Below, piece by piece: positions 3,925 to 33,941 of a DNA stretch of 41,156 nt. Below the pieces are notes generated by a model, which saw only the letters and a list, made by a program, of their open reading frames with translations, was not told the origin of the DNA and did not search any database. A program made the translations under genes and the position numbers. The first letter of the stretch is position 1. The number at the start of each line of letters is the position of its first letter. Source of the DNA: an uncultured Microcaldota archaeon (GTDB lineage Archaea > Micrarchaeota > Micrarchaeia > Micrarchaeales > Micrarchaeaceae); assembly GCA_903884115.1 (NCBI GenBank), contig CAISDH010000057.1, forward strand, positions 1 to 41,156, given 5' to 3'.

Positions 3925-4860
3925 TCAACCCTTGCCGTACTTCAGATCCTGCAGGGATGCCCTTGCAGCCAGCGCAGCCTTGGCCCCGCTGCCCGCGGCA
4001 GTGACTGCCTGCCTGTAAACCTTGTCAGCAGCATCTCCGGCAACGAACACTCCTGCAATCTCTGTCTTTACCTCGTCCTTGGTCATGATGTACCCCTGAT
4101 CGTCTAGCTGCAGTTTGCCCTGCAGGAAGCCGGTATTCGGAGTGTAGCCTATTGCAACGAACACGCCGTCTGTCTTGATGGCGGACGTGTCGTTTGTCTT
4201 GAGGTTCTTCACTCTCACGCTTGTAACCTTGCTGGTGCCGATCACTTCTTCTATCACACTGTTCAATACAAGCTTTATCTTGCTGTTTGACGTGACGCGC
4301 TCCTGCATTATCTTGCTCGCCCTGAACTCGTCCCTTCTGTGCACTATGGTGACGCTGCTCGCGAACTTTGAGATGAATAGCGCATCTTCCATCGCAGTGT
4401 CCCCGCCTCCGACCACTATCACGCTCTTGTTCTTGTAGAACGGCGCATCGCATGTGGCGCAGTTGCTCACGCCCTTGCCTATGAATTTCTTCTCCGATTC
4501 AAGGCCAAGCCACTTGGCAGATGCTCCAGGCGCGAGTATGACGCTGTTCGCAAGGTATGTATCAGAACCTGCCACAACCTTGAAGGGCAGGGTCTTGAAG
4601 TCAACTGCAGTGACAAGACCGTCAACGAACCTTGTGCCGAACTTCTTGGCCTGCGCCATGAAGCGCGCCATGAGCTCGGTGCCCAGCACACCATCAGGAA
4701 AGCCAGGATAATTCTCAACCGTGCTTGTCAGCGTAAGCTGGCCGCCCTGCTCTATGCCTGTTATCACCATCGGCTTGAAGTCCTCCCTGGACAAGTAGAT
4801 TGCGGCGGTGTACCCTGCTGGGCCGGATCCCACTATTATTACGTCTTCGACACTGGGCAA
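3925..4860 (-). CDS. trxB: Thioredoxin reductase, FAD/NADPH-dependent
   Basis: Transfers electrons from NADPH through FAD and a redox disulfide to thioredoxin-like proteins. N-terminal FAD motif GSGPAGYTAA (~11-20), redox-active CATC (Cys134/Cys137), NAD(P)-binding GGGDTAMEDA (~151-160), an HRR..RA signature preferring NADPH, and a C-terminal FAD motif VAGDAAD. About 311 aa, the normal low-molecular-weight type. The start is TTG at 4860, preceded by a run of T; the TATA element ~35 bp upstream predicts an ~8-nt leader. The downstream MEMO gene is probably co-transcribed. Confidence 0.93.
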   Translation of the reverse strand: MPSVEDVIIVGSGPAGYTAAIYLSREDFKPMVITGIEQGGQLTLTSTVENYPGFPDGVLGTELMARFMAQAKKFGTRFVDGLVTAVDFKTLPFKVVAGSDTYLANSVILAPGASAKWLGLESEKKFIGKGVSNCATCDAPFYKNKSVIVVGGGDTAMEDALFISKFASSVTIVHRRDEFRASKIMQERVTSNSKIKLVLNSVIEEVIGTSKVTSVRVKNLKTNDTSAIKTDGVFVAIGYTPNTGFLQGKLQLDDQGYIMTKDEVKTEIAGVFVAGDAADKVYRQAVTAAGSGAKAALAARASLQDLKYGKG

Positions 4861-5902: not shown

Positions 5903-6470
5903 ACTTGCTGCACACGCTTTTCATCAGGGAATCGAATTCGCGCTTCGTGTTCTTGTACTCGTTGTGCAGCGATTTGTTTCCCATGCTCATCTCCTGCTGC
6001 GTGTAGAGTATGACATCGTACAGGTCTGCAAGCTTGACAATCTTGCTTTCGATCGTCTTCCTTGCGTTGTATTCTTCGAACAATGAATAGATCTTGCTCG
6101 ATGTCTTCTTGTCATTCAGCTTGGCAAGCGCATAGTTCATGGTTATCTTCTCAAGCCCTTCGAGCTGCTCCCTCAGGCCCCTGCTGACCTCGCCGTAATC
6201 GTATTTAGAGTCGTGAGGAAGATCCCCGCTTATCGCCTCAGGAACGTCGTGTATCAGGGCAAGCTTTATCACCCGGCCTGAATCGTTCCGCACTCCATGG
6301 TTGTTAAGATACTCGGACAGCACCATCGATATGAATGCGACGTCGCCGATGTGCTCCATGACGGTCTGCCGTATTATGAACTTGCGGGTGCTGTACCTTG
6401 TTATTGAAGACAGCCTGCCGATCACGTACGACAGGTACCTGTTCACGTTCTTGTTGAGTTGATCCACCAT
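5886..6470 (-). CDS. HD-domain phosphohydrolase (YfbR/5'-nucleotidase-like)
   Basis: About 194 aa, with the HD metal-binding signature in order: VMEHIGDVA (first His), LALIHDVPEAISGD (HD pair) and VKLADLYDVI (final Asp). This arrangement, with the PEAI.GD sequence after HD, is typical of YfbR/HDDC2-like 5'-deoxynucleotidases that hydrolyse (d)NMPs; nucleotide salvage is the likely role. Start ATG 6470 is chosen over the GTG two codons upstream. It lies just downstream of tRNA-Ile on the same strand and ends convergently, overlapping the MBL gene. Confidence 0.8.
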   Translation of the reverse strand: MVDQLNKNVNRYLSYVIGRLSSITRYSTRKFIIRQTVMEHIGDVAFISMVLSEYLNNHGVRNDSGRVIKLALIHDVPEAISGDLPHDSKYDYGEVSRGLREQLEGLEKITMNYALAKLNDKKTSSKIYSLFEEYNARKTIESKIVKLADLYDVILYTQQEMSMGNKSLHNEYKNTKREFDSLMKSVCSKSRAAK

Positions 6471-6491
6471 GCACACTACCTGTAAGATAAA

Positions 6492-6603
6492 TGGGCCCGC
6501 GGAGATTTGAACTCCGGACCTCCCGATTATCAGTCGGGCGCTCCAACCAGGCTTTCAGCCTTGCATTTTGACTTACATCAACGTGCAAGTAAGCTACGAG
6601 CCC
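6492..6603 (-). tRNA. tRNA-Ile (GAU) with a 37-nt intron at position 13/14
   Basis: The mature tRNA is 75 nt: acceptor GGGCUCG/CGGGCCC (one G-U), anticodon stem CCCGA/UCGGG with loop CUGAUAA (GAU), T-arm CGGAG-UUCAAAU-CUCCG, A73. The D-arm is interrupted: exon 1 is 6591-6603, the intron 6554-6590, exon 2 6492-6553. The junctions form a proper bulge-helix-bulge: intron helix CUUGCA/UGCAAG, 3-nt bulge UUA, 4-bp central helix UAGC/GCUG, 3-nt bulge AAA. Cutting each bulge between its 2nd and 3rd nt restores a normal D-arm. A TATA-like TTAAAG lies ~27 bp upstream. No encoded CCA. Confidence 0.92.
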
Positions 6604-6645
6604 CAAATACAATGTGACTTTTCAGCTTTAAGAGTTTTGCTTTCT

Positions 6646-7263
6646 CTACTCCAACATAACCTCTGACACTTTTCCAAGAGGCGTGTCCTCATGGAACACC
6701 TGGGTCTGGAAACTGTAGACGTTGACATTGGGCTGCGACCAGTAGTTAGGGCTCAGGCCGGCCTTTACGCACGCCTGCTCTAGGAATGTCTTCTTGTCCC
6801 AGTGCTGCTCCACTGCTACGATAGGCAGCAGAAGCCCGCTGTACATGCCGTATTCCACTATGATGCCATCCCTTCCTACTTTTATCGAATTGAGCCTGTT
6901 GCGGCTGCCTCCCTTGATGAGTTCGGGTTTCGAGAGCAGGCTTATCTCAACAACGAGGGAGTCAAGCTCCCTTTTTGAGACGGGCACGAACCTTGGGTCT
7001 TCGAACGCTGCAGCAATTGCGGCGTCGACTATGCTCTCGTTGAGCGAAGCCACTGCATTAGGGAAGCCTATGCAGCCCCGCAGCTCCTTTGTCGGGTAGA
7101 ACTCGAGAGTCACGAATACGCCGTGCTTCTCGCTGAAATGGGCTATGCTGTCGACCACGATCTTCTTGTTGAAGCGCGGGTTTATGATGAAGAGCTCTAT
7201 GCTGCTCCTTGCTGCCTTCACAAGCTCTTCGCCCTGCTTTGCGCTGTACAGGTGCATGTTCAT
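6646..7263 (-). CDS. AMMECR1-domain protein (AmmeMemoRadiSam system component A)
   Basis: 205 aa, spanned by one AMMECR1 domain. Signature LRGCIGFP (~61-68), preceded by GVFVTLE and followed by the conserved AAFEDPRF segment, VEISLL, GxxGLLLP and C-terminal W..K..FL. The biochemical role is unknown; the family co-occurs with MEMO and a radical-SAM enzyme, and the conserved Cys suggests acyl/redox chemistry. A MEMO gene is present at 3.1-3.9 kb, so both halves of the pair are encoded near each other but in separate units. Starts at ATG 7263 (or the second ATG two codons in). The TATA-like element ~21 bp upstream implies a leaderless mRNA. Confidence 0.9.
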   Translation of the reverse strand: MNMHLYSAKQGEELVKAARSSIELFIINPRFNKKIVVDSIAHFSEKHGVFVTLEFYPTKELRGCIGFPNAVASLNESIVDAAIAAAFEDPRFVPVSKRELDSLVVEISLLSKPELIKGGSRNRLNSIKVGRDGIIVEYGMYSGLLLPIVAVEQHWDKKTFLEQACVKAGLSPNYWSQPNVNVYSFQTQVFHEDTPLGKVSEVMLE

Positions 7264-7405
7264 GACTTGTGAGGTAAAGCTTTAATAGAATACATCTAGA
7301 TGTAGGCATATGGGCAGGCAGATCAGGCTGCAGGAAGGAAGCGATTTAAAAGGCAGCACTCATAAGACTGCGTCTTCCGCACGCCGAGGCACAGAGGATA
7401 TCTTA

Positions 7406-7891
7406 ATGGAACCTTCAGCTGTTTCATCATCTGGGCGCAGGAAGCTAGTCATATTCACAGACGGAGCGGCCAGGGGGAATCCCGGGCCTAGCGCCTCGGG
7501 CTACATGGTCTTCGAGAACGGAAAGCTTGTAAAGAAATACGCATTCTATAACGGCAGCGCCACGAACAACACAGCAGAGTACAATGCGATAATCGCCGCG
7601 CTGGAATGGTGCGTCGAGAATGTCAGCGACACCCATAGCACCTGGATAACGCTGAACTCCGACAGCGAACTCGTGGTAAGGCAGATGAAAGGGGAGTACA
7701 AGACAAAGTCGGATCTGTTGAAAGCACTGCATAATAAGGCAGATGAGCTGGCAGGAGCGCTCGGGAACGTAGAGTTTGCAAATCTCAGAAGGAGCAACAA
7801 GTACATAAGCGCCGTGGACAAATCGCTTAATGCCCTTCTTGACAATTACGAAAGCGACAATCAGCGCGCGGCAGGGAAACCAAGCACATAA
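7406..7891 (+). CDS. rnhA: Ribonuclease HI
   Basis: Cleaves the RNA strand of RNA-DNA hybrids. About 161 aa: FTDGAARGNPGPS (first catalytic Asp and the GNPG loop), NNTAEYNA (catalytic Glu), LNSDSELVVRQM (second Asp) and a late AVDKSLNALL Asp. This is the compact, bacterial-like/archaeal type I fold. The frame extends back to 7310, but that part contains a TATA-like TTTAAAA near 7345 and no RNase H sequence, so ATG 7406 is preferred. The TPR-AAA gene follows 26 bp downstream on the same strand. Confidence 0.92.
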   Translation: MEPSAVSSSGRRKLVIFTDGAARGNPGPSASGYMVFENGKLVKKYAFYNGSATNNTAEYNAIIAALEWCVENVSDTHSTWITLNSDSELVVRQMKGEYKTKSDLLKALHNKADELAGALGNVEFANLRRSNKYISAVDKSLNALLDNYESDNQRAAGKPST

Positions 7892-17200: not shown

Positions 17201-17259
17201 AGATACTTATATGCCCAGGTTTCTGGCTGTTTGTTTGCCCAGGTTTGCAGTCTTGTAAA
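17201..17259 (-). promoter_or_regulatory. Cluster promoter module, copy 1 (protein A)
   Basis: In coding orientation: TTTACAAGAC, then a GCAAAC block, CAAACAAACAGCCAGAAAC, and GCATATAAGTATCT as TATA. Best matches are copies 2 and 4. The spacing of all blocks is the same in the other copies, and the 5' end of the module is ~87 bp from the ATG. Confidence 0.85.
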
Positions 17260-19925: not shown

Positions 19926-19984
19926 AGATACTTATATGCTTGGTTTTTTGACAATTTGTTTGCAAAATCTTGCTATTTTGTAAA
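19926..19984 (-). promoter_or_regulatory. Cluster promoter module, copy 4 (protein F)
   Basis: TTTACAAAATAGCAAGATTT, GCAAACAAATTGTCAAAAAA, GCATATAAGTATCT (TATA), 28 bp before the presumed ATG at 19897. Confidence 0.88.
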
Positions 19985-23883: not shown

Positions 23884-23942
23884 AGGACAATATCACAGAG
23901 TTACGCAAATAAATTGCCAGAAAACCGAGCATATAAGTATCT
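23884..23942 (+). promoter_or_regulatory. Cluster promoter module, copy 5 (protein I, opposite strand)
   Basis: Reads ATATCACAGAG, CGCAAATAAATTGCCAGAAA, GCATATAAGTATCT (TATA). Same architecture as copies 1-4 but on the plus strand, 4 kb away, with IleRS and PLD in between. Confidence 0.88.
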
Positions 23943-31314: not shown

Positions 31315-31341
31315 AACTTCTAATCCTATATTATCTGCACT

Positions 31342-31449
31342 GCGATCGTAGTCTAGCCTGGTAGGACTTGGCCCCTCCATTGGAAACTTTTAGAAAAAGT
31401 TTCATCAAAAGGAAAGGCCAAGACCCGGGTTCAAATCCCGGCGGTCGCA
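31342..31449 (+). tRNA. tRNA-Gly (UCC) with 35-nt intron at 37/38
   Basis: Acceptor GCGAUCG/CGGUCGC (one G-U), D-stem GUCU/GGAC, T-arm CCGGG-UUCAAAU-CCCGG, A73. Anticodon stem UGGCC/GGCCA. With the intron at 31380-31414 removed the loop is CCUCCAA, anticodon UCC, intron at the canonical site 37/38. The intron contains a GAAAC/GUUUC-type hairpin. The central BHB helix is weak (three pairs plus a C-A), so it is a relaxed motif. Position 33 would be C rather than the near-universal U. Other readings (CCC, or Trp CCA) fit the stems less well. Confidence 0.8.
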
Positions 31450-31490
31450 AATAATACTTCAAGCCACATACATAGGAAAGATATAGTTAC
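31450..31490. other. Spacer between tRNA-Gly and the retroelement
   Basis: 40 bases, A/T-rich, immediately following the tRNA 3' end; no gene. Confidence 0.5.
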
Positions 31491-32605
31491 CTAAGAGGAG
31501 AGGCGTTTGTCAGCAAGACCAGATGATTCCGATAGTAAATCATCGAACTCCTTTGTGAGCCTCCTTCTAAAATTATACGTATTGGCAAATTCCGCGTAGG
31601 CGAACCAACCTTCAAAACTTCTGCTAGCATCCTCTCTTTTCACATCGCCATTGCTGCATTGTTGCCTGAACTTCTCAAGACGTTTGATGATTCTTCTTGC
31701 ATTGCTTCTTTTGAGAAGTCTATAATAATAGAAGACTCTGAAACCGAGCAATGTTATGCCCTTTTCTAAATGTATGATTCTTGTTTTGTCGGGATGAAGC
31801 TCTATCTTCAGGGCACCGCTGAGAAATTCATCTATCGCCACTTTCAATTTCTCAAGTGTTTTTCTGTCTCTGTGCAAGATTACAAAGTCGTCCACATACC
31901 GGACATAGTATTTTGCCCTTAGCTGATGCTTAATGAATTGGTCTAACTCATTAAGGTAGACATTTGCAAAGAACTGAGAGGTAAGGTTCCCTATGGGCAT
32001 GCCTTTCCCGGCGATTTCAGTCTTATGGTTCTTCAATATTATTTTTATCAACCACAAGGCACTCTTGTCCTTTATTCTGCGTTCTATTATCTCTAACAGC
32101 GTTTTATGGTCTACAGTGTCAAAATAGTGCCGAACATCTGCTTTAAGGGCATAGCCGTAACTAAACTCCTTATGGAAAAGTTTACGCTGCCCCCCCCCAC
32201 GCAAAACGGTGTTTTGTACCTGATCTTTCTTAAAAACTGCTCGAATCTCTTTATTGCAAGGTGCGTGCCTTTTCCTTTCTGGTTTGCAAAGGAATCGTAG
32301 ATAAAGGTCTTTGAAAGAATCGGTTCTATGATGTTGCATAACGCATGATGCACAATTCTATCTCTGAAATGCGATGCGCTAATCTTCCTAGTCTTAGGAT
32401 CTCTAATAACGAAAGTGGTCAACGGACTTGGCGAGTAAGTAAACGTTTCTAGGTCATGTTTCAATCTTTTTAGATTATTATCCAGATCGGATTCGAACTC
32501 GATAACACAATCCTTTAGCGTTTTTCCCTTTCTTGCCTTTCTCCAAGCAAGGTAAAGGTTTTCATCAGAGCATAGAGTAGAATAGAGGTTGTTATAAGTC
32601 TTCAT
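31491..32605 (-). CDS. DGR reverse transcriptase, frame broken in a G9 run
   Basis: The mutagenic reverse transcriptase of a diversity-generating retroelement. Two overlapping frames, 32605 to ~32190 and ~32200 to 31491, together give a complete RT (~370 aa): N-terminal palm/fingers (VIRDPKTRKISASHFRDRIV), motif A ADVRHYFDTVDH, DGR-type motif B PIGNLTSQFFANVYLNELD (the SQ version typical of DGRs, not the QG-SP of group II introns), catalytic YVDD in YYVRYVDDFVIL, and thumb. Frames switch at a G9 run (coding strand; C9 at 32190-32198); G10 would make one ORF. No Avd accessory gene is seen. More A/T-rich than surrounding genes. Confidence 0.9.
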
Positions 32606-32641
32606 GAGATCAGCCTACACGAACCTAGGATGTAAGCAAGA

Positions 32642-32743
32642 ACCATTGGGGCAGCGTTCTGAGGGTCGTTGTTCGCGTTGAGGTTGAAACGCCTCTCGTT
32701 GATACGGGCGTTGTTGTCCGTGTGCACGTTCAGCGACAACGGC
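32642..32743 (-). repeat. DGR template repeat (TR)
   Basis: 102 bp, 37 bp upstream of the RT ATG. In coding orientation it is loaded with AAC codons (e.g. NLNANNDPQNAAP when translated in phase), as expected for an adenine-mutagenised template. Gap-free alignment to 33195-33296: 16 differences, 15 at template A (12 A to G, 3 A to T) and 1 G to C; the template has 28 A. The GC-rich end (GCTGCCCC) would be the IMH-like side. Confidence 0.95.
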
Positions 32744-32980
32744 AGAATGTTAACCCATCTACTATAATGCCATTTCTGGCGACACCACAGCTTTACTTTT
32801 TCAGCATGAACTTACTCAGTATCGCTGTTGAATTTCATGTCTAGCATGCCCGTTTGGTTACTAGCACTGTAGACGAGTGTGTGGTTCCTAGGTGCTTACA
32901 TCCATGAACAAGGGGTTAGCTGTCCATGGCCTTAGTGGCAATGGTTATCCACCTTGACCTAGGCAGAATTGATAAGAAGT
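32744..32980. other. Spacer between target gene and template repeat
   Basis: About 240 bases with no convincing ORF on either strand. By analogy with other DGRs it is the 5' part of the TR-containing RNA or target 3' UTR. No Avd-like gene. Confidence 0.45.
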
Positions 32981-33616
32981 TCACTCTTTTATTCTTAACG
33001 CCGCCACTAACATCCTTGTCTTAAGGAGATTATCCGAGCCGAATACCTCTGCAACCTTAGATAGTTCTTGCTCAGAATCTCTACAAAGTGCCATTAGTTG
33101 TTCTGAAGTAATCCCAGTTAGTTTAACGCCTTCGTCCGCTTCAGATACCTCAATTTTCGGCATGGCCACTTCGTGGCCGACTCTAACCCCAACCACCACC
33201 GGGGCAGCGTCCTGAGGGTCGCCGTCCGCGTCGAGGTAGAAACGCCCCTCGTCGACACGGGCGTTGCTGTGCGTGCGCACGAACAGCGACAACGGCTCAT
33301 TACCTGAATAAGCACGAACTGTTTTTTCTATGTCTCCCTTTCCTTCTGTGAGCTTGCCTTCATTGTCAAAAGTATAGTATCCTGATTCTTCTAGACCTTT
33401 TCCGGCTAAATAGAACCAGTTTCCCTTCAATTGCTCCTTTAGCTCCGGGTTTCCGTCTATAAGCACTAGAGCTTCCTGCTTTTCCATTGGTTCTAGTTTA
33501 TGTTGCTGCAAAAGTTCTATAGATTTGGCATGATTCGCCTCGATCTCGGCAATGAATACTCCAGTATTGTTTACTTCCTTAAACTGCGCTTCAGTCCTTA
33601 ATATAGTTTTAGGCAT
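32981..33616 (-). CDS. DGR target protein with C-type-lectin-like variable domain (211 aa)
   Basis: Start ATG 33616, directly preceded by GTGATAAA and by promoter copy 6. N-terminal ~60 residues helical and charged; then a likely CLec-type fold (~65-147) with NWFYLAGKG, SGYYTFDNEG, and the variable repeat at ~109-142 ending VVVGVRVG. Unusually, ~63 further residues follow the variable repeat (IEVSEADEGVKL..., helical C-terminus). No signal peptide or TM segment: probably cytoplasmic. Variable residues relative to the template include N to F, H to R, N to Y, N to D (several), R to G and N to G. Function unknown; ligand binding by the variable surface is inferred from the DGR family. Confidence 0.85.
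   Translation of the reverse strand: MPKTILRTEAQFKEVNNTGVFIAEIEANHAKSIELLQQHKLEPMEKQEALVLIDGNPELKEQLKGNWFYLAGKGLEESGYYTFDNEGKLTEGKGDIEKTVRAYSGNEPLSLFVRTHSNARVDEGRFYLDADGDPQDAAPVVVGVRVGHEVAMPKIEVSEADEGVKLTGITSEQLMALCRDSEQELSKVAEVFGSDNLLKTRMLVAALRIKE
33195..33296 (-). repeat. DGR variable repeat (VR)
   Basis: Variable copy of the template inside the target gene (residues ~108-141). See the template for the alignment. The upstream boundary is sharp at GCCGTTGTCGCTG; beyond the GC-rich end the two diverge. Confidence 0.95.
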
Positions 33617-33654: not shown

Positions 33655-33713
33655 AGATACTTATACTTTTTCTTTTGTTGCAGTTTGTTTGCGAAATCTT
33701 GTGATTTTGAAGT
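33655..33713 (-). promoter_or_regulatory. Cluster promoter module, copy 6 (DGR target)
   Basis: CAAAATCACAAGATTTCGC, AAACAAACTGCAACAAAA, then AGTATAAGTATCT (TATA), 38 bp before the ATG. The same three blocks in the same spacing as copies 1-5; the distal block is closest to copies 3 and 4. Confidence 0.85.
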
Positions 33714-33815: not shown

Positions 33816-33941
33816 ATGTCCAAAGAAAAAGGGCATATAACCTACGTGCCTAATGCTCGGCGGTCGCACATTATGTTTTTGAATACATATCACGCAGCTA
33901 CACTGCCTTCAGACACTCGAAGCCTAAGTTGCTATTTATAA
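33816..33941 (+). CDS. Possible 41-aa ORF spanning the tRNA-like repeat
   Basis: ATG 33816 to TAA 33941, basic, includes KEKGHITYVPNARRSHI. The partial repeat of the tRNA-Gly 3' end lies inside it. May be a small protein or a gene fragment left by an insertion; no family recognised. Confidence 0.25.
   Translation: MSKEKGHITYVPNARRSHIMFLNTYHAATLPSDTRSLSCYL
33858..33868 (+). repeat. 11-bp repeat of tRNA-Gly 3' end (possible att site)
   Basis: CGGCGGTCGCA is identical to the last 11 bases of tRNA-Gly (31439-31449) and in the same orientation. The two copies bracket the entire DGR (31450-33857). tRNA 3' ends are common integration sites; no integrase gene lies between, so this would be a relic. 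Confidence 0.45.

Follow-up and report, generated by a model that had tools for sequence, protein, structure and literature searches.

A diversity-generating retroelement (DGR) whose reverse transcriptase (RT) is probably phase-variable, turned on and off by slippage in a tract of nine G residues (G9), lies in the window, a 41,156-nucleotide stretch of DNA from an archaeon of the phylum Micrarchaeota (also listed as Microcaldota; genome of 1.02 Mb in 57 contigs). The DGR itself belongs to a known kind and the proposed switch tract is the new feature. The original prediction had described a complete, adenine-specific DGR in a DPANN archaeon, with target, template and RT following each other on the minus strand. 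Our results fully support the adenine-specific element, which is of a kind already known, and the order of the genes holds. "Complete" does not describe the DNA as sequenced, where the reading frame of the RT is broken at the poly-G tract. This frame break, overlooked by the prediction, is the most interesting feature of the locus, because comparison with relatives indicates that a simple-sequence switch has recurred there, rather than decay. It also seems likely that DPANN archaea have repeatedly gained hypermutable tracts in their RT genes, which would constitute a stochastic, heritable switch on a targeted hypermutator, place one system of variation under the control of another and split populations into diversifying and frozen cells. 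The sites concerned would be one loop of the protein in Micrarchaeota (loop 1) and a second, perhaps also a third, in Woesearchaeota/Nanoarchaeota-type lineages (loops 2 and 3).

The retroelement, its target gene and its template RNA

On the minus strand the target gene is followed by an RT-16 RNA, the template repeat (TR) and the RT gene (32605-31491) (Table 1). TR and variable repeat (VR) align without gaps over 102 bp with 16 differences (12 A to G, three A to T and one G to C); the tally of the prediction, 15 of 16 differences at template A, was exact. The changes hit 15 of the 28 TR adenines as compared to one of the 74 non-A positions, and the best ungapped match of the template scores 76.5, the runner-up 13.5. 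The proposed check on VR alleles in relatives bore out the same bias, as the repeats of other Micrarchaeota loci with a locatable TR/VR pair differ almost solely at template A (pooled over loci with a detectable pair, mismatches at 388 of 653 A and at 12 of 1431 non-A positions).

Table 1. Features of the DGR locus, with positions in the window
Feature	Position	Strand	Remarks
Intron-containing tRNA-Arg(CCG)	31341..31450	+	Adjoins the 3' end of the RT gene
RT, second frame	31491..32339	-	Catalytic part beyond the tract, comprising thumb and palm (the latter with GNLTSQ and YVDD); ORF of 282 aa as listed
RT, first frame	32111..32605	-	136 N-terminal codons before the G tract; frame lost after it, up to a stop
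G9 tract (C9 on the + strand)	32190..32198	-	Proposed phase-variation switch
Template repeat (TR)	32642..32743	-	102-bp core; repeat as reported 32637-32743
RT-16 RNA (RF03019)	32745..32908	-	164 nt directly upstream of TR
DGR target gene	32981..33616	-	211 aa from ATG 33616; ORF reaches 33745, promoter within the extension
Variable repeat (VR)	33195..33296	-	Inside the target gene
Promoter motif GCAAACAAACTGC...TATAAGTAT	33657..33692	-	40 nt before ATG 33616

The RT-16 RNA was recognized by its match to RF03019 (68.8 bits with a gathering score of 50, E 9.8e-9); the evidence is this covariance model match, since the fold by itself is not significant (z -1.4). RT RNA motifs were reportedly described by Weinberg et al. 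in 2017. An RT-16 RNA was found in all 18 further DPANN DGR loci scanned, and we infer that it forms the 5' part of the template RNA. Some RT-16 RNAs have no RT within about 4 kb (L047, L056, L073, L080, L082, L083 and L084). Two others (L061 and L066) also lack a nearby RT, yet have TR/VR pairs with adenine bias, which an RT encoded at another genomic site may serve.

The VR of a DGR usually sits at the C-terminus of the target in a C-type lectin fold, an arrangement that is typical and not defining. Here the VR is internal and 71 target codons follow it; in other Micrarchaeota targets 44 to 182 residues follow, with one exception (6 residues, L055). In the DPANN DGRs of PMC8144416 the VRs are C-terminal, which is explained there by cis-acting elements outside the gene, and internal VRs would therefore need such elements within the coding sequence. 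The target had no significant match in Pfam, PHROGs or PDB sequences. Its AlphaFold2 model is weak, with a pLDDT of 59, and Foldseek returned mostly C-type lectin domains, none of them significant (best E 0.06).

Upstream of the target lies a 36-bp promoter motif (GCAAACAAAYTGYNNNAAAANNNNNNNTATAAGTAT), which has 22 matches in the genome at three mismatches or fewer, as compared to none for a reversed control pattern. Further sites are found in the window at 19928-19963 (-), 17203-17238 (-) and 23905-23940 (+), and the genome has 18 others. The motif is usually located 26-40 nt upstream of an ATG, and its distance of 40 nt here supports the target start at 33616. The genes that bear it mostly encode small, lineage-specific and mutually dissimilar proteins, and from the shared sequence they look like a regulon that includes the DGR target. 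On contig 6, at about 40,730-41,320 (-) (L309), there is an intact paralogue of the target without a VR segment, preceded by a promoter of this kind.

The last 11 nt of the tRNA-Arg(CCG) gene are repeated at 33858-33868 (-), so that the cassette is bracketed. This is possibly an old integration duplication, of unproven meaning, and neither an integrase nor an empty site was found for such an integration. Integration at a tRNA site as a general property of DGRs was rejected, as a tRNA lies within 700 bp in only a few cases among 158 DGR loci. A viral origin was rejected as well, since IMG/VR holds just distant RTs (35-41% identity) and no relatives of the target.

Simple-sequence tracts in the reverse transcriptases of two phyla

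The RT is encoded by two overlapping open reading frames in different frames, and the homology crosses from one to the other exactly at the G9 run, which is the sole G or C homopolymer of at least eight bases in the 1.02-Mb genome. With nine G the product is 164 aa long and lacks the catalytic motifs, while G10 joins both frames into 371 aa and G7 into 370 aa. The tract is the sole lesion of the gene. The RT matches RVT_1 at 1.1e-18 and has the SQ-type motif B and the YVDD that the prediction had read from it (GNLTSQ, YVDD), and in an RT tree it falls into one clade (support 100) with RTs of Micrarchaeota for which TR/VR pairs are found. PADLOC models of defence RTs (DRT) score below the general RT model, as with any RT, and a role as a defence RT was ruled out by the TR/VR pair.

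The RT-16 RNA had matches in 38 of the 301 genomes searched within the phylum, and we compared the surroundings of the loci. Five Micrarchaeota loci had first entered via an RT search and the rest via the RT-16 RNA; because the loci were mostly found by the RNA, there was no selection on the RT frame. A simple-sequence tract is present in the same loop in 22 of the 30 RTs that have both halves, as G8 to G11, one C9 or (AG)5-12. The tract-bearing RTs are out of frame in 19 of 22 cases, whereas the eight without a tract are all in frame (Fisher p 2.8e-5). Loop 1 connects the KRFExF helix to the GYALKAD strand; in the predicted model of an in-frame relative (L078) it has a pLDDT below 50, between helix and palm, and the tract thus appears to be placed in a disordered loop. 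Across Micrarchaeota, tracts occur at 0.73 per kb within the RT and at 0.027 per kb outside, a difference of about 27-fold.

The frame offsets 0, +1 and +2 are all seen among the RTs, and the in-frame share of the tract-bearing genes (3 of 22) is somewhat below one third (p 0.07). Some RTs are in frame despite full tracts (L078 with G10, L046 with (AG)10 and L272 with G12), and close relatives are found in opposite states, as L063 (G8, OFF) and L078 (G10, ON), or L074 (OFF) and L046 (ON). In L050 the corresponding stretch is interrupted by other bases and the RT is in frame. The Micrarchaeota tract is ancestral or often regained, and the 22 cases are therefore not 22 independent events. In L045 the tract with its flank occurs as G9 and as G11 on either side of an NN gap, and the contig of L052 terminates inside the tract. 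These patterns would be expected if the assemblers had met several tract lengths, and are only suggestive; the two copies in L045 may also stem from a real duplication or from faulty scaffolding.

For a Woesearchaeota/Nanoarchaeota control set we searched, with the RT-16 RNA, 279 genomes from the phylum to which a Woesearchaeota locus belongs; 80 had matches, and 60 loci were taken. Loop 1 is without a tract of the Micrarchaeota kind in this phylum. Seven RTs are instead out of frame at loop 2, just before GKGMPLGNLTSQ, and every one of these breaks is at a tract (G11, (GA)9, G12, G9, (CT)11, G10 and G9); in three further control RTs the loop-2 tract is in frame. L113, L155 and L274 have tracts, (AG)7 or G9, in yet another loop, close to RT residue 313, and all three are in frame. 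The notion that the tract is restricted to Micrarchaeota was abandoned once the control set had revealed the second site. Frame breaks without a tract were seen in two control RTs and in three RTs of an E-value-ranked set, one of them apparently a duplicate, giving about four distinct genes, one of which is broken at a tandem duplication, and this shows that ordinary decay occurs too. In L137 (about 4060-4100) the RT loses its frame where AAGCTAGAAAAGGAAAAAC occurs twice in a short tandem duplication, which may be a further form of slippage.

In the RT tree the 27 Micrarchaeota sequences form one clade (100) and the loop-2 tracts fall in a separate group. Over all RTs, the tree requires no fewer than 14 changes in the site of the tract and 17 in its motif, so that tracts are gained, lost and altered in sequence.

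Out-of-frame genes and the explanations of the tract

In 23 of the 26 out-of-frame genes of both phyla, altering the tract by a single repeat unit brings back an open reading frame of 312-470 aa. The exceptions are L070 and L290, which carry further lesions, and L064, which is unjudgeable as its extrapolated start hits a stop. In four pairs of relatives on which dN/dS was computed, the half downstream of the tract gave 0.04 and 0.08 (OFF/OFF pairs) and 0.08 and 0.11 (ON/OFF pairs). To judge from these sequences, both halves of the RT appear to be intact and under purifying selection, which is strong in the half downstream of the tract. The VRs point in the same direction. At OFF loci TR and VR differ at 243 of 385 A and 8 of 897 other positions, and at ON loci, a group that takes in three loci (L052, L067 and L075) whose contigs end before or at the tract, at 145 of 268 A and 4 of 534 other positions; the score that picked the segments penalises non-A differences alike in both groups. 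The VRs have thus undergone recent rewriting though the RT is off in the assembled genomes, and those of OFF loci are as fresh as those of ON loci.

These data are most simply read as slippage during replication, by which a single population would contain both ON and OFF cells. The RT would copy a template RNA consisting of the RT-16 structure and the TR, placing random bases opposite A, and the cDNA would replace the VR of the predicted C-type-lectin-like protein. Replication slippage would alter the G9 tract by one repeat unit, so that each cell makes either the full-length RT (ON, with G10 or G7) or the 164-aa product (OFF, with G9), and a lineage would by turns retain a target variant that has proved successful and produce further variants. 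Slippage in vivo, ON and OFF subpopulations and a benefit to the cell are what we infer from the comparison of relatives.

The main rival is programmed slippage, in which the RNA polymerase or the ribosome slips and yields a constant small share of full-length RT, that is, control of dose and not a genetic switch. Such a mechanism would account for VRs that stay fresh despite an out-of-frame RT, and the 19 out-of-frame genes among 22 are a mild excess over two thirds. The shift it requires is not conserved, however, as all three offsets occur, and the full tracts of L078, L046 and L272 need no shift at all. Moreover, the place of the G runs can be taken by (AG)n and (CT)n tracts, and to our knowledge dinucleotide repeats are not classic slippage signals. 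We therefore regard programmed slippage as unlikely, even if it is the alternative with the best claim. That the true gene is in frame and the break an error of sequencing or assembly is less likely still, and we give it only a slim chance. Homopolymers are error-prone and single-base errors would look identical, but the tract is real, recurs at one site throughout the phylum and is far sparser outside the RT; dinucleotide tracts are also out of frame, and wrong lengths would be required in 19 of 22 genes. A long tract in this position stays a hypermutable site even if its length were wrong.

A dying RT pseudogene in an extinct DGR would equally be out of frame, and true remnants do exist among the relatives, as L012 and L013 are truncated and L070 has a second lesion. 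L013 is a decayed DGR: at 6416-7419 (-) in genome G048 a target homologue (62% identity) is directly followed by a C-terminal RT fragment. The window RT, in contrast, has no lesion besides the tract, its TR and VR differ at just one of the 74 non-A positions, and the low dN/dS downstream of the tract in the four pairs of relatives speaks against decay, which makes extinction of this DGR highly improbable. Neither a dN/dS close to 1 nor a surplus of non-A differences between TR and VR, as decay would produce, was seen.

Relation to known systems and implications

The DGRs known from DPANN archaea (Paul et al. 2015, PMC4372165; Roux et al. 2021, PMC8144416) share with the one described here a DGR-type RT, a TR/VR pair with adenine-specific changes and a small target without recognisable domains beyond the VR region, for which a C-type lectin fold is suggested. 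The window DGR differs from them by the RT-16 RNA that precedes the template, by its RT, which is phase-broken at a simple-sequence tract, and, as compared to PMC8144416, by the internal position of the VR. Frameshift, phase variation and homopolymer are all absent from the text of PMC8144416, which infers a steady and broad DGR activity, and frameshift, pseudogene and homopolymer from that of PMC4372165.

The poly-G contingency loci of Campylobacter, Neisseria and Campylobacter phages (PMC4965091, PMC5084427, PMC11868660) likewise have intragenic G or C tracts of about 7-12 that set the frame to on or off. They mainly concern surface or restriction-modification genes, whereas the gene here is archaeal and the engine of a second variation system. 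The review PMC11868660 names archaea just as a future direction, and neither retroelement nor reverse transcriptase occurs in its text. Searches of open-licence papers did not bring up any DGR whose RT is described as phase-variable.

The DGR of Bordetella phage BPP-1 has the same logic of TR, VR and RT and the same adenine-specific mutagenesis as the window DGR. The latter is without the accessory Avd gene, and its structured RNA is placed upstream of the TR, whereas that of BPP-1 is in a spacer downstream of the TR. We know of no switch tract in BPP-1.

The convergent tracts in two phyla are what makes the proposed DGR switch notable. Gene annotation may miss RT reading frames broken by a tract or call them pseudogenes, so that counts of these DGRs may be too low. 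With the RT-16 RNA, DGRs can be searched for regardless of the frame of the RT. If the proposed switch is true, it would be the first phase-variable mutator of this kind, as far as we found, and would clearly exemplify contingency loci of the simple-sequence type among DPANN archaea. Slippage in the RT gene would be a simple and testable answer to how DGRs are controlled in two archaeal phyla, as cells could freeze a useful variant of the target and later resume diversification.
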